The notes beneath the pieces were generated by a model. That model saw only the letters and a program-made list of their open reading frames with translations, had not been told where the DNA came from and searched no databases. This document shows, piece after piece, positions 45,361 through 61,187 of a DNA stretch of 64,000 bases. The DNA is from Armatimonadota bacterium (lineage in GTDB: Bacteria > Armatimonadota > DTGP01 > JAKQQT01): contig DASXVS010000079.1 of NCBI GenBank assembly GCA_036504095.1, forward strand, positions 124,001-188,000, written 5' to 3'. The position numbers were made by a program, and so were the translations under genes. The first letter of the stretch is position 1; each line of letters opens with the position of its first letter.

Positions 45361-45410
45361 GGTCGCCTAAGGGCGACTTGGCAACGGGAGCCCGCCAGTT
45401 CATTGGCGGG
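45361..45410 (+). repeat. REP element C
   Basis: Two hairpins, GTCGCC-TAAG-GGCGAC (45362-45377) and CCCGCCAG-TTCA-TTGGCGGG (45391-45410), match the layout of the REP family seen around the RAYT gene. The second hairpin keeps the TTCA loop. Confidence 0.7.
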
Positions 45411-45444
45411 GCAAACCATCTTCGGCAGGCCCTCACCGCCACGC

Positions 45445-50057: not shown

Positions 50058-50105
50058 CGGTCGCGTAGCGACGAAACGAAAGCAGAGGGGTGCTTCAGCG
50101 CCCCG
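50058..50105 (+). repeat. REP element D, overlapping the PIN-toxin gene end
   Basis: Hairpin GTCGC-GTA-GCGAC (50060-50072) and hairpin GGGGTGC-TTCA-GCGCCCC (50087-50104) match the REP family. The minus-strand stop codon of the PIN gene is read from the TTCA loop. Confidence 0.7.
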
Positions 50106-50523
50106 CCTTCAGCGCCGCGAAGAACTCGTGGGTATCCTGAACCAGGATGGGAAATCCTTCTCGGACCGCCGAAGTCAGGATGTGGCGCCGATCAAGGGAA
50201 ACCAACACGTCGGAACCGGTCAGGTATGCACCGGCGAGGACGTGCGCGTCCTTCTGAGCGACGAGGTGAATCCACCTTGCGATATCGTGCTGGCTCGTTT
50301 CTACCCCCACCTCGATGTCAGTTTGGTGAACGTCCACGAGGAAGCGTGACATTGCCTCCCTGGGTAGTTTGGCGAGGATGTTCCGTTCCGCTTCAACGAG
50401 CACCAGTGGGGTGGTGATGATCCTAAACGCGTTAGCCCGGGCCAGCCGCAGGAGTTCCGCTGATCCGCCGGACGGACTGCCCGCCGCGGCAACCCAGCAC
50501 GTTGCGTCCAGGAAAACCCTCAT
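50095..50523 (-). CDS. PIN-domain ribonuclease toxin (VapC-like)
   Basis: This 142-residue protein is a PIN-domain protein. The four conserved acidic positions are visible: FLDATCW (Asp6), VLVEAERNIL (Glu), KDAHVLAGA (Asp) and VLVSLDRRH (Asp). The family consists of metal-dependent endoribonuclease toxins held in check by a DNA-binding antitoxin. ATG 50523 overlaps the stop of the upstream helix-turn-helix gene by four bases. The last codons and stop lie inside a REP element, so the C-terminus has probably been remodelled by the repeat. Confidence 0.85.
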   Translation of the reverse strand: MRVFLDATCWVAAAGSPSGGSAELLRLARANAFRIITTPLVLVEAERNILAKLPREAMSRFLVDVHQTDIEVGVETSQHDIARWIHLVAQKDAHVLAGAYLTGSDVLVSLDRRHILTSAVREGFPILVQDTHEFFAALKAGR

Positions 50524-57045: not shown

Positions 57046-57822
57046 ATGGCGCATATTCCACAGGAACGGCGTGATGCCATCATAACTCGTATTCTACGCC
57101 GCGGCCACGTGGCGATCAAGGATCTGTCGACCGAGCTTTGCGTCTCGGAGGCCACCGCCCGCCGCGATCTGCGCGTTCTGGCCGATGCCGGAGAGGTGGA
57201 ACTCGTCTACGGCGGCGCAACTCTGCCGCGCACATCGGACCACTCCATTTCCTCCCGCGCGCTGCGCAATGCTGAGGCCAAGCGTCTTATCGGTGAACTG
57301 GCCGCAGGATTGATCTCCGACCAGGAGATGTTGTACATAGACGCCGGCACAACCTGTTACGAAATGCGGCACTATCTCCAGCGCAAACGCGGCCTGTCCA
57401 TTATCCTCAACTCGACGCGCCTGACGGTTGAACTGGGCGCAAGCACGGACGCCAGCATTATTCAGTTGGGCGGCCATTACAGAGCCGATAGCATGGATGC
57501 CGTTGGGCCCCTGGCGGTCGCCGCAATCGATCAATTGCGCGGTTACCTTGCCTTTATCGGCGCCGACGGCCTCGGGATGGATTTCGGGCTGACCGCCAGC
57601 GACATTCAGACGGCGCACCTGTACCAGCATGTATTGAAGAACGCCAGGGAAGCGATTCTCCTTGTGGATCACACCAAGTTTTTGACGCCTTCGCTGTTCC
57701 GCATCTGCGGTTGGGAAGGCATATCGCGCATCGTCACCGATATCCGGCCCGACCCGGACTGGCTTGCCTTCCTTCACGAGAGCGGCATCGAGGTCCTGTG
57801 GCCGAGTGACAATATGGAGTGA
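57046..57822 (+). CDS. DeoR/GlpR-family transcriptional regulator
   Basis: This 258-residue protein has the N-terminal DeoR winged helix (VAIKDLSTELCVSEATARRDLRVL) and the C-terminal sensor domain with the sugar-phosphate-binding pattern YIDAGTTCYEM and GADGLGMDFGLTA. Members sense phosphorylated sugars and repress adjacent catabolic genes. It is divergent from the four-gene polyol operon (56962 to 50915) and shares an 80-base intergenic region with it, so it most likely controls that operon and itself. Confidence 0.92.
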   Translation: MAHIPQERRDAIITRILRRGHVAIKDLSTELCVSEATARRDLRVLADAGEVELVYGGATLPRTSDHSISSRALRNAEAKRLIGELAAGLISDQEMLYIDAGTTCYEMRHYLQRKRGLSIILNSTRLTVELGASTDASIIQLGGHYRADSMDAVGPLAVAAIDQLRGYLAFIGADGLGMDFGLTASDIQTAHLYQHVLKNAREAILLVDHTKFLTPSLFRICGWEGISRIVTDIRPDPDWLAFLHESGIEVLWPSDNME

Positions 57823-57826
57823 CGAC

Positions 57827-57874
57827 ACCCGGCGCTGAAGCGTTGGGCTCCTGTCTTCCAGCCCCTACGGGGCG
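57827..57874 (-). repeat. REP element E, inverted copy upstream of the RAYT gene
   Basis: Its reverse complement aligns end to end with the 58617 unit: hairpin GCCCC-GTA-GGGGC, an A-rich linker and hairpin CGC-TTCA-GCG flanked by GGGT. It overlaps no gene and lies opposite in orientation to the downstream array. Confidence 0.85.
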
Positions 57875-57907
57875 GAGAAGTCGGTCGCTCGTTAGGAGGA
57901 GTCGTGA

Positions 57908-58360
57908 ATGGCGAATTCGTTTATTTCGTGTTACGTTCACGTGGTTTTCAGTACATATCGCCGTCAGCCAAGCATCGAGGAGTCCTGGCGCGAGCGGCTC
58001 TGGGCGTATATCGGTGGAGTCCTGGAGAGCGCAAATATGGTTCCGATTTGTGTGGGTGGCACAGAGGACCACTGTCACGCGCTAATCGCCATCCCGGGTA
58101 CACTTGCATTGTCGCACGCTGTTCAGCTCCTGAAGGGTGGATCGTCCCACTGGATACGACAGAACATCCCTTCGGCCGAAGGGTTCGCCTGGCAGGAGGG
58201 CTATGGTGCTTTCAGCGTGTCGCCGAACGCCCGCAACACGGTCATCGCGTATATTCGCGGGCAAGAGGAGCATCACAAATTGCGATCCTTTCAAGATGAG
58301 TACCTGCGTCCTCTTGTCGATAGCGGGGTCGAGTTCGATGAGCGTTATGTATGGGGCTGA
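57908..58360 (+). CDS. REP-associated tyrosine transposase (RAYT, IS200/IS605 Y1 type)
   Basis: This 150-residue protein is a single-strand HUH nuclease. The HUH pair is His55/His57 in EDHCHALI and the catalytic Tyr is Tyr115 in TVIAYIRGQEEHHK. The C-terminal FQDEYLRPL and DERYVW segments are characteristic. AGGAGG lies nine bases before ATG 57908. It is flanked on the left by an inverted REP copy and on the right by four tandem REP units. No tnpB and no full insertion-sequence ends are seen, so it is probably a domesticated transposase that acts on the REP elements. Confidence 0.92.
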   Translation: MANSFISCYVHVVFSTYRRQPSIEESWRERLWAYIGGVLESANMVPICVGGTEDHCHALIAIPGTLALSHAVQLLKGGSSHWIRQNIPSAEGFAWQEGYGAFSVSPNARNTVIAYIRGQEEHHKLRSFQDEYLRPLVDSGVEFDERYVWG

Positions 58361-58407
58361 ACGGCCTCCGTATCGCCTGAGTGCCTGCCTTGTTTGAGAG
58401 ATTGACT

Positions 58408-58678
58408 CGCCCCGCAGGGCCGGAAGACAGAAGCCGGGCAGTTTACTGGCAGGTCCGGGATAGGGGCCGGCCCATTCGCCCCGTAGGGGCTGAATGATAG
58501 GAGCCCGGCAGTTCACTGCCTGGCACGGTAAACGGACCGGCTCACTCGCCCCGCACGGGCCGAAAGAAAGAAGCTCGGCAGTTCAATGCCGGGTCTGGGA
58601 TAAGGACCGGTTCGGTCGCCCCGTAGGGGCTGAAAGATAGAAGCCCGGTAGTTCACTGCCGGGTACGGGGTAGACCCC
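58408..58678 (+). repeat. Array of four ~70-bp REP units downstream of the RAYT gene
   Basis: Units start at 58408, 58477, 58547 and 58617 (period 69-70). Each has hairpin 1 (CGCCCCG-N-GGGGC type), an A/G-rich linker, and hairpin 2, for example CCCGGTAG-TTCA-CTGCCGGG at 58644-58663. Stem bases vary with compensation while TTCA is kept in three of four units. The array ends 20 bases before the next gene and takes up nearly all of this 337-base gap. Confidence 0.9.
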
Positions 58679-58697: not shown

Positions 58698-61187
58698 ATG
58701 CCAAAATCCATCCCCATCCGCCCGAAAGACGTCCGAAAGCCCGGCCGCATCACGTTCGATCCTATCCCGATCAATCAGTACAAGCGAACCGTTCAGCAGG
58801 AGTCCGAACGATACGGCGTGGACGCGCTGTTGCGCATCCATCGGGATATGGCCATCATCCGTGCGTTCGAGACCATGCTCAACGAGGTCAAACTCAGCGG
58901 GAAGTACGCGGGCATCGAATACAATCATCGCGGACCCGCGCACCTGAGCATCGGCCAGGAAGCCGCATCCGTCGGGCAGTGTTTTCTGCTCGGCGTTGAG
59001 GACCATATCTTCGGCAGCCATCGCAGCCACGGTGAGATCCTCGCCAAGGGCCTGAGCGCCATCGCCAAACTCGACGACGCGACCCTCCAGTCCATCATGG
59101 AATCCTACATGGGCGGCGCCACCCTCAAAGCTGTCGAGTCTCCGCTCCCGGGTCTCACTTCGCAAGTCTCAAGTCTCAAGGATATCGCCGTCGATTTCCT
59201 GCTGTACGGGACTCTGTCTGAGATATTCGGCCGCGAGGCAGGCTTCAATAAGGGCATGGGCGGCAGCATGCACGCGTTCTTTACGCCGTTCGGCGTTTAC
59301 CCGAACAACGCCATCGTTGGCGGCTCCGGAGATATCAGCGTCGGAGCAGCCCTGTACAAGAAGGTCAACCTGAAGCCGGGCATCGTCATCTGCAACATCG
59401 GGGACGCTTCGGCGGGCTGTGGTCCTGTGTGGGAAGGCCTGTGCTTCGCGACTATGGACCAGTTCAAGACCCTTTGGGACGAAGCGCATCGCGGTGGCCT
59501 GCCCCTGATTGTGAATTTCGTCAACAACTTCTACGGCATGGGCGGACAGCCGGTTGGCGAGACGATGGGATTCGGCGTCCTCGCGCGGCTTGGCGCGGGC
59601 CTCAGCCCGGACAACATGCACGCGGAACGCATCGACGGCTACAACCCGTTGGCCGTTATCGACGCCATCGCCCGCAAGCGCGAGCTCATCGCCAGGGGGG
59701 ATGGACCGGCGCTCCTCGATACGGTGACCTACCGTTACAGCGGCCACTCACCGTCCGATGCGTCGTCCTATCGCGACAAGGCCGAAATCGAGGAATGGCA
59801 GAAGGTCGATTCGCTGGTCACCTACCGCGACAGCCTTCTCGGAGCCGGCCTGGCATCGAGCGTCGAGTTCGACCATGAGCAGTCTCTTGTCAACGCCGCC
59901 ATTCTGCGCGCTTACACCCGGGCCATAGACCTGGACCTCTCCCCGCGTGCCGACCTGTACGCCGTAGGCTCGCTCCTCGAGTCAACGATGTTCTCCAACG
60001 AGAGCGTTGAGTCATTCGACACATCCCGCGAGCCCGAGATCCGGGGACCACTTGCCGAGAACGCCCGGGTCAAGCAGCTCGCCGGGCGCAGTCGAACCGG
60101 GGTGGGGGAGGACGGCCAGCCGCTCCCGAAGGGCAAGTGCATCGGCATCCGCGATGCGATCTTCGAGGCCGTTCTGGACCGCTTCACAAAAGACCCCACG
60201 ATGGTGGCGTACGGCGAGGAGAATCGCGACTGGGGCGGCGCTTTCGGCGTCTATCGCGGACTCACCGAAGCGCTGCCGTACCATCGGCTGTTCAACACGC
60301 CCATCTCCGAAGGAGCCATCGCCGGCACGGCGTGCGGGTATGGCCTCGAAGGTGGCCGGGCGCTCGTCGAGCTGATGTACTGCGACTTCATGGGTCGCGC
60401 CGGAGACGAAATCTTCAACCAGTTGAGCAAATGGCAGGCGATGTCCGGAGGCGATCTGCGGATGCCCGTGGTCATGCGCGTCTCCGTCGGCAGCAAGTAC
60501 GGCGCCCAGCACAGCCAGGACTGGACGTCCATGGCGGCTCATATACCCGGCCTGAAAGTCGTTTTCCCGGCCACGCCCTACGACGCCAAAGGCCTGATGG
60601 CCGCTGCGCTCTGTGGCACGGACCCCGTCATCTACTTCGAAAGCCAACGCATCTACGATCAGCCCGAACTGTTCCACCCGGAAGGCGTGCCGGCGACGTA
60701 TTATGAGATTCCAATCGGTGAGCCGGAGGTCAAGAAGCCCGGAAGCGATCTGACGATTCTGACCGTGGGCGCCACGCTCTATCGCGCGCTTCAGGCCGCG
60801 AAGCAATTGGAGACGGACCACGGGATCACTTGTGAGGTCATCGACGCGCGCAGCATAGTCCCGTTCAACTACGACCGCGTCATCGAGTCGGTCAGCAAAA
60901 CCCACCGCATCGTCCTGGCATCGGACGCCTGTGAACGCGGGAGTTTCCTCCATACCATGGCCAGCCGGATCACGGAGTTCGCGTTTGACGAGCTGGACGC
61001 CCCGCCGGCCGTGGTTGGCGCGCGCAACTGGATCACGCCCGCCGACGAGGTCGAGGACGCGTTCTTCCCGTACCCGATAGACATCATCGACGCCGTCCAC
61101 GAGCATATCATGCCCCTTCCCGGCCATCAATCGAAGCGCCCCGCGGATACGGTGGAACTCGAGCGCCGAAGCAGGCTGGGAATATAG
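58698..61187 (+). CDS. Fused alpha-beta E1 component of a 2-oxoacid (acetoin/branched-chain type) dehydrogenase
   Basis: This 829-residue thiamine-diphosphate enzyme carries the E1-alpha domain (about 40-420; cofactor-binding [16 protein letters not shown] ... NFVNN) and the E1-beta domain (about 485-810; [32 protein letters not shown]) in one chain. It decarboxylates a 2-oxoacid and transfers the acyl group to a lipoyl E2. No E2 or E3 gene is adjacent in the window. Residues 152-161 ([10 protein letters not shown]) are encoded by a heptamer repeat array inserted in frame. The start has a weak RBS; a REP array lies just upstream. Confidence 0.9.
59152..59179 (+). repeat. Heptamer array inside the E1 coding sequence
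   Basis: Units GTCTCAC, TTCGCAA, GTCTCAA, GTCTCAA run for 28 bases inside the E1 gene. They encode residues 152-161 and do not disturb the frame. Confidence 0.75.

Follow-up and report, generated by a model that had tools for sequence, protein, structure and literature searches.

A probable REPtron-like locus on an IS200-related Y1 transposase, with repeats that appear to be of the Acido-Lenti-1 kind

What does a small transposase gene do when it stands, with no tnpB beside it, between inverted copies of a palindromic repeat? We asked this of a locus in a 64,000-nt stretch of a bacterial genome (contig DASXVS010000079.1, positions 124,001 to 188,000), called the window throughout, where a spacer of 875 nt between genes for a DeoR-type regulator (57046-57822) and a dehydrogenase E1 (58698-61187) holds the gene and its flanking elements. 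The answer that we consider quite probable is that this is a REPtron-like locus on an IS200-related enzyme of subclass 1.2, which would act on single-stranded DNA hairpins of the Acido-Lenti-1 kind and spread these elements.

57827..57874, minus strand: left two-hairpin element, inverted relative to the right units; 48 nt; Acido-Lenti-1 at 29.8 bits, E 1.4e-4
57908..58360, plus strand: tnpA-Y1 gene, apparently of subclass 1.2 type; 150 aa; HUH His55/His57, Tyr115, YIRGQEEHH, C-terminal FDERYVWG
58407..58455, plus strand: right unit 1, two-hairpin element, decayed; 61 bits with covariance model R1
58476..58525, plus strand: right unit 2, two-hairpin element; 74 bits
58546..58595, plus strand: right unit 3, two-hairpin element; 67.5 bits
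58616..58665, plus strand: right unit 4, two-hairpin element; 76.5 bits; Acido-Lenti-1 at 24.4 bits

A preliminary description of this DNA had proposed a HUH/Y1 transposase of 150 residues with His55/His57 and Tyr115, one inverted element to its left and four units of ~70 nt to its right, and the coordinates confirm both the gene (57908-58360) and its surroundings (57827-57874 and 58407-58665). As had also been remarked, neither tnpB nor IS ends are seen at the locus: tnpB is not adjacent to the gene, the genome's one TnpB-like match lies on another contig, and no near-identical copy of the gene was found in its genome. The suspicion of a distant phylum was well founded, since an RpoB tree groups the genome and Armatimonadetes bacterium SZAS-4 in a single clade (support 100/100), and the host is accordingly a member of the Armatimonadota.

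The right-hand units follow one another at a spacing of 69-70 nt. A window unit comprises a first hairpin of 5 bp with a 3-nt loop (CGCCCC GTA GGGGC), a linker of ~13 nt with GAAG or GGAG at its 3' end, and a second hairpin of 8 bp with a TTCA or TTTA loop (CCCGGCAG TTCA CTGCCGGG); the foot of the element is this GAAG or GGAG, that is RAG, without GTAG. Among seven copies of the element, 92% of the pair cells are paired and three pairs have changed on both sides. The left and right sides give an inverted local alignment score of 29; 2,000 dinucleotide shuffles reached 20 at most, and 394 other positions in the window with this geometry reached 18 at most. When the 4.68-Mb genome was searched with a covariance model built from these copies, the unit proved not to be confined to the locus: the family has nine copies (54-77 bits), of which the locus holds five. 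The remaining four are spread over three intergenic sites away from it, and at one of these sites two copies form an inverted pair 12 nt apart. The layout of a REPtron, with inverted flanking elements and cognate copies elsewhere in the genome, had thus been rightly recognised. With nine copies here, and with no score among 20 relatives above the 34 bits of G001, which alone of the other sampled genomes is from the same family, the repeat family is genome-specific and small. Weak matches to the element model at 50058-50107 and 45363-45412 of the window (29 and 25 bits) are perhaps decayed copies or another family.

The class of the protein and the other Y1 genes of its genome

The window protein has a Y1_Tnp domain (Pfam, E 2.9e-23) and scores 59 bits with the NCBIfam IS200 model (cut-off 55), and 17.6 bits with the NCBI RAYT equivalog (cut-off 80), on which a canonical-type (class 2) gene of the same genome, L021, reaches 79.6 bits. 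Its AlphaFold2 model (pLDDT 90.6) is matched best by IS608/ISDra2 TnpA in Foldseek, with the E. coli RAYT 4er8 also found at 5.5e-5; phmmer gave no match to the PDB sequences. In the group scheme for RAYT and TnpA-Y1 proteins of Quentin et al. 2018 (PMC6006769), subclass 1.2 is recognised by HUH together with Y---Q--HH, by WQ and by a length of about 148 aa. The window protein has His55 and His57 in DHCH (C where V or I is usual), WQ, Tyr115 in YIRGQEEHH, 150 aa and the expected C-terminus, and by these motifs, rather than by the profiles of that study, it is a TnpA-Y1 of subclass 1.2, close to IS200 TnpA and not a canonical RAYT. Y---Q--HH is present in 79 of 80 homologues and Y---NP in 0 of 80. 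Canonical RAYT/TnpA-REP of class 2, which goes with REPs that have a GT[AG]G foot, was ruled out by the motif (Y---Q--HH, not Y---NP), the score of 17.6 bits and the lack of a GTAG foot. The name RAYT in the preliminary description therefore has to be given up, and its comparison to a REPtron stands for layout and, probably, for function, and not for the enzyme, which carries Y---Q--HH and is IS200-like.

The genome (G000) has five genes of subclass 1.2 in all, and the other four are 34-45% identical to that of the window, with no near-identical copies, in keeping with the low copy number and divergent copies within one genome that are typical of the subclass. In a protein tree the window protein is placed beside a multi-phylum clade, away from its four paralogues. 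Subclass 1.2 was listed as 'REP: no', generally without IS200-type ends, and as mostly from Cyanobacteria and Bacteroidetes; the scheme keeps REPs to class 2 (Y---NP) and gives 2.6 and 3 atypical structures (PMC6006769). This lack of REPs or IS-like ends, a property reported in PMC6006769 and outside the sequence definition of the subclass, does not extend to G000, where all five genes have inverted hairpin arms. There are six further Y1 genes in this genome, four of subclass 1.2 (L016-L019) and two of the canonical RAYT type (L020 and L021), and every one of the six is flanked by inverted copies of a hairpin repeat, from a different family for each gene. All repeat families of the Y1 genes of G000 have dispersed copies, and those of L020 and L021 are GTAG-footed palindromes, as in canonical REPs. 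The matched frame of L020 (C50) is interrupted by a TGA, and L021, the other canonical-type gene, is on C45. L016 (C24), with its hairpin arms, adjoins an mnmE-like gene. Repeat families of several different Y1 genes are stacked in three intergenic islands of G000:

C8:1-1600: island L272, stacked Y1 repeat families
C16:65000-66200: island L269, stacked Y1 repeat families
C46:44000-44700: island L273, stacked Y1 repeat families

Inverted arms, Acido-Lenti-1 and solo copies

To see how far the arrangement extends, we took the best 80 homologues in GTDB contigs, 78 of them with enough flank. They come from ten or so phyla, among them Acidobacteriota, Bacteroidota, Verrucomicrobiota, Planctomycetota, Calditrichota and Thermodesulfobacteriota; Cyanobacteria are not represented in the best 80. 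An inverted repeat between the two 400-nt flanks was found for 63 of 78 homologues, leaving 15 with no detectable arms; among 131 control windows, placed 1.5 kb away, 2 had one. The arms are usually ~90-110 nt long, often begin within about 20 nt of the gene, and are present in each phylum with more than two loci (in Bacteroidota at 12 of 18). Of two Bacteroidota plasmid homologues, that of Persicobacter (L286) has inverted arms and that of Bernardetia (L285) no detectable ones. The association with inverted arms is thus general for homologues of the window protein. The best-known arm begins with a small hairpin and a linker of ~12 nt that closes with (A/T)TAG; a hairpin of 8 bp with a 4-nt loop follows, then ~25 nt and another small hairpin before the gene. 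In a scan of all 64 trinucleotides, TAG heads the perfect 8-bp hairpin in 67 arms and any other in at most 5; 54 of 54 such hairpins have TAGCC, with TTCA (20) and TTTA (10) as loops, and the feet are ATAG (35), TTAG (14), GTAG (4) and CTAG (1). The stem alignment (A2) has strong covariation and 100% pairing, but this is circular because its rows were picked for perfect stems, and we prefer a test made without selection for pairing, in which the density of [AT]TAGCC in arms is ten times that of control DNA and, of 89 such sites, 63 head a stem with 7-8 of 8 pairs. Elements of most relatives (TAG-type arms) face the gene, whereas those of the window face away from it, and the TAG foot is missing from most Armatimonadota genes outside the window's clade, where the elements have other feet.

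Arms and proteins vary together. Similarity of the one follows that of the other with a Mantel rho of 0.36, and of 0.28 between different phyla (both P<=0.001), in line with the coevolution of repeat and transposase for which the preliminary description had proposed a test; the two nearest protein relatives of the window (L082 and L083) have the arms most like those of the window among its eight nearest.

The preliminary description had taken the repeat for a new REP sequence. It is not wholly new: by its sequence and structure the window element appears to be a diverged Acido-Lenti-1 element (RF01687) that falls below the Rfam cut-off. Four matches in the window, at 29.8, 24.4, 19.9 and 16.4 bits, do not reach the gathering threshold of 37, and all four cover RF01687 positions 1-46 with the two-hairpin structure and some non-standard pairs. 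Read as its reverse complement, the RF01687 consensus opens with a small hairpin, and after ~9 nt come TAG and a hairpin of 8 bp with a loop of 4 nt. The arms of the homologues are this element and reach 37-56 bits. Weinberg et al. introduced Acido-Lenti-1 in 2010 (PMC2864571), from Acidobacteria and Lentisphaerae, as a probable RNA to which no function was assigned. At curated cut-offs, the Rfam matches in 40 homologue loci are Acido-Lenti-1 and one tRNA only. With the array locus L084 left out, 78% (31 of 40) of the Acido-Lenti-1 hits in the other 39 loci are within 300 nt of the gene, a zone that makes up 10.5% of the DNA (binomial P 5e-23, for hits that are not fully independent). At L084:2382-5587 (Desulfococcaceae HSG8), dozens of Acido-Lenti-1 units at ~70-nt spacing flank a subclass 1.2 gene to its left and right, like the four-unit array of the window on a larger scale.

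Genomes with the gene are rich in the element: six gene-bearing genomes have 149, 101, 103, 92, 136 and 150 copies, and 8 of 14 have 47-150, the highest numbers (up to 150) being lower bounds with at most 150 candidates scored; in 14 well-known control genomes there are 0. Copy number rises with gene number (rho 0.67 in 14 genomes picked by gene alone). Among 61 Armatimonadota genomes, five have a full-length gene of the window type, and four of these carry the element, versus 8 of the 56 others (Fisher P 0.004). The fifth, G016, has no detectable Acido-Lenti-1, and the catalytic Tyr of its homologue (L029:1495-1941) is replaced (HDIDTQRQHH). Two Armatimonadota genomes, G003 and G039, have 22 and 7 elements with no subclass 1.2 gene detected, for which gene loss, an assembly gap or service in trans are possible explanations. 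In the excerpts of the literature that name Acido-Lenti-1, we found no link to a transposase, and its copies are still read there as possible regulators, for example in Tannerella (PMC13298647).

Whole arms of ~90 nt are also found as dispersed solo copies. We searched 14 genomes with their 14 arms together, so that cross-matches serve as the control even as own arms have a head start, and among the matches listed, 98 of 101 dispersed ones from twelve genomes point to the arm native to that genome; in G062, families of other types occur as well. About 25 solo copies that share sharp ends occur in G070; for three of them, G083 has the orthologous spacer without the element, in flanking DNA that is 93-95% identical. 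The only gene of this kind in G083 is a distant one. Exact insertion junctions at empty sites in G083, G090 and G084 could not be read because the spacers have diverged too far.

Competing explanations, a proposed mechanism and what it would mean

Arms that abut the gene on both sides and often resemble terminal inverted repeats might belong to a small insertion sequence with long inverted ends, the solo arms being MITE-like deletion derivatives. Two units are, moreover, enclosed by direct duplications that repeat the 3' end of the gene upstream. The L016 unit is flanked by exact 27-bp copies (1357-1383 and 2041-2067) of the end of that gene, including its stop, and beyond the unit of L042 (G027 C45), a Y1 gene with arms placed directly after a comM-like gene, the 3' end of the comM-like gene is repeated over ~211 bp at 96% identity, as seen in the ~300 nt on either side of the Y1 gene. 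Transposition of the IS200 type is not known to make such duplications, and a target duplication would not be expected of a Y1 transposase. Against an insertion sequence speak the divergence of the four paralogues in G000 (34-45% identity to the window's, near-identical copies absent), solo arms that outnumber genes 10-50 fold in several genomes, and the arrays or REPIN-like pairs that occur among many arms, and we regard it as unlikely. That the locus is what an ordinary IS200/IS605 element (subclass 1.1) left behind once its ends had decayed we find scarcely credible, for all that the protein is above the NCBI IS200 cut-off and nearest in fold to IS608/ISDra2 TnpA. Inverted arms are absent from all four IS200-type controls, three of which lack Q--HH and sit beside a transposase or TnpB gene; tnpB is missing from the window locus and, by motif, from the 80 homologue loci; and the arms are conserved across phyla. 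IS200/IS605 elements carry subterminal hairpins at left and right, with guide and cleavage sites; the window locus has hairpins too, as inverted copies of one element on both sides.

The elements might also be structured RNAs, as the listing of RF01687 as an sRNA in Rfam implies, or bidirectional terminators, their nearness to a transposase gene being incidental or regulatory. The stems covary and the two hairpins could work in RNA, but covariation is equally expected from hairpins of single-stranded DNA, and the concentration of 78% of the hits (39 homologue loci) in 10.5% of the DNA, by the gene, on both sides and inverted, together with ~100-150 copies per genome and the L084 array of dozens of units at ~70 nt, makes this reading very improbable. 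We think it likely instead that Acido-Lenti-1 is not primarily an RNA but a single-stranded DNA substrate of TnpA-Y1 of subclass 1.2, and that the two form a second, independent system of the REP/RAYT type, spread over ten or so phyla and derived from IS200-like transposases rather than from class 2.

For the REPtron-like locus a mechanism can be drawn from the biochemistry of IS608 and TnpA-REP (PMC8266576). The enzyme would recognise the two-hairpin element as single-stranded DNA, and a dimer would bind the folded hairpin of 8 bp and 4 nt, by analogy with IS608 and the E. coli TnpA-REP. The foot, which ends in AG (as TAG in relatives and as RAG in the window), might be read as a guide for the cleavage site, predicted to be CT; Tyr115 would then cleave a nearby short site with a 5'-phosphotyrosine link, and joining of the strand at another place would copy or move single elements or inverted pairs of them, the gene itself remaining at low copy number. 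The TTNA loop resembles the one needed by the TnpA-REP of Marinomonas (PMC8266576). Since the genes are few and divergent and the elements many, the enzyme most likely spreads its repeats rather than itself. Present activity of the window family is doubtful because the family is small, and with nine copies and one decayed unit it may be quiet now. The idea of a domesticated enzyme, also put forward in the preliminary description, is plausible; against it, other units of this kind carry the long flanking duplications, which hint at movement.

The nearest known systems are the REPtrons of TnpA-REP class 2 (PMC6006769), as in E. coli and Stenotrophomonas (PMC8266576), which share with the present loci a Y1 HUH gene flanked by inverted palindromic repeats, dispersed and gene-specific repeats, a hairpin with an AG-ending 5' foot and the lack of tnpB. 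They differ in that the enzyme here has Y---Q--HH and an IS200-type core, the foot is TAG (RAG in the window) and not GTAG, and the repeat has a second small hairpin; their copy number is often >100 per genome, compared with nine for the window family and 101-150 Acido-Lenti-1 copies in relatives. REPtrons with GTAG beyond the gammaproteobacteria were already known (PMC3733652, PMC6006769). TIRtrons (Di Nocera et al. 2013, PMC3733652) likewise have a Y1 gene, for a TIRYT, within long inverted repeats that are partly self-complementary and in some cases have dispersed copies, but their proteins belong to subclasses 2.1, 2.2 and 2.5 (PMC6006769), not 1.2. With subclass 1.2 as described in PMC6006769 the present genes agree in length, WQ, Y---Q--HH, the C-terminal domain, low copy number and divergent paralogues, and differ in that they typically have inverted hairpin arms, over ten or so phyla. 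Acido-Lenti-1 agrees in that the reverse complement of its consensus matches the element of the window locus, and differs in being annotated as an sRNA, where we see a REP-like DNA repeat tied to a transposase.

These observations give putative substrates to a subclass described without REPs or IS ends, and they indicate what a widespread 'RNA' of Rfam is likely to be; 'IS200/IS605 family transposase', the name that the NCBI pipeline gives to such genes, is misleading. If the proposed reading is true, the Y1 family arrived at a REP/RAYT lifestyle on two or more occasions, and a guide rule, an AG-ending foot with a TTNA loop, would be comparable between two lineages.
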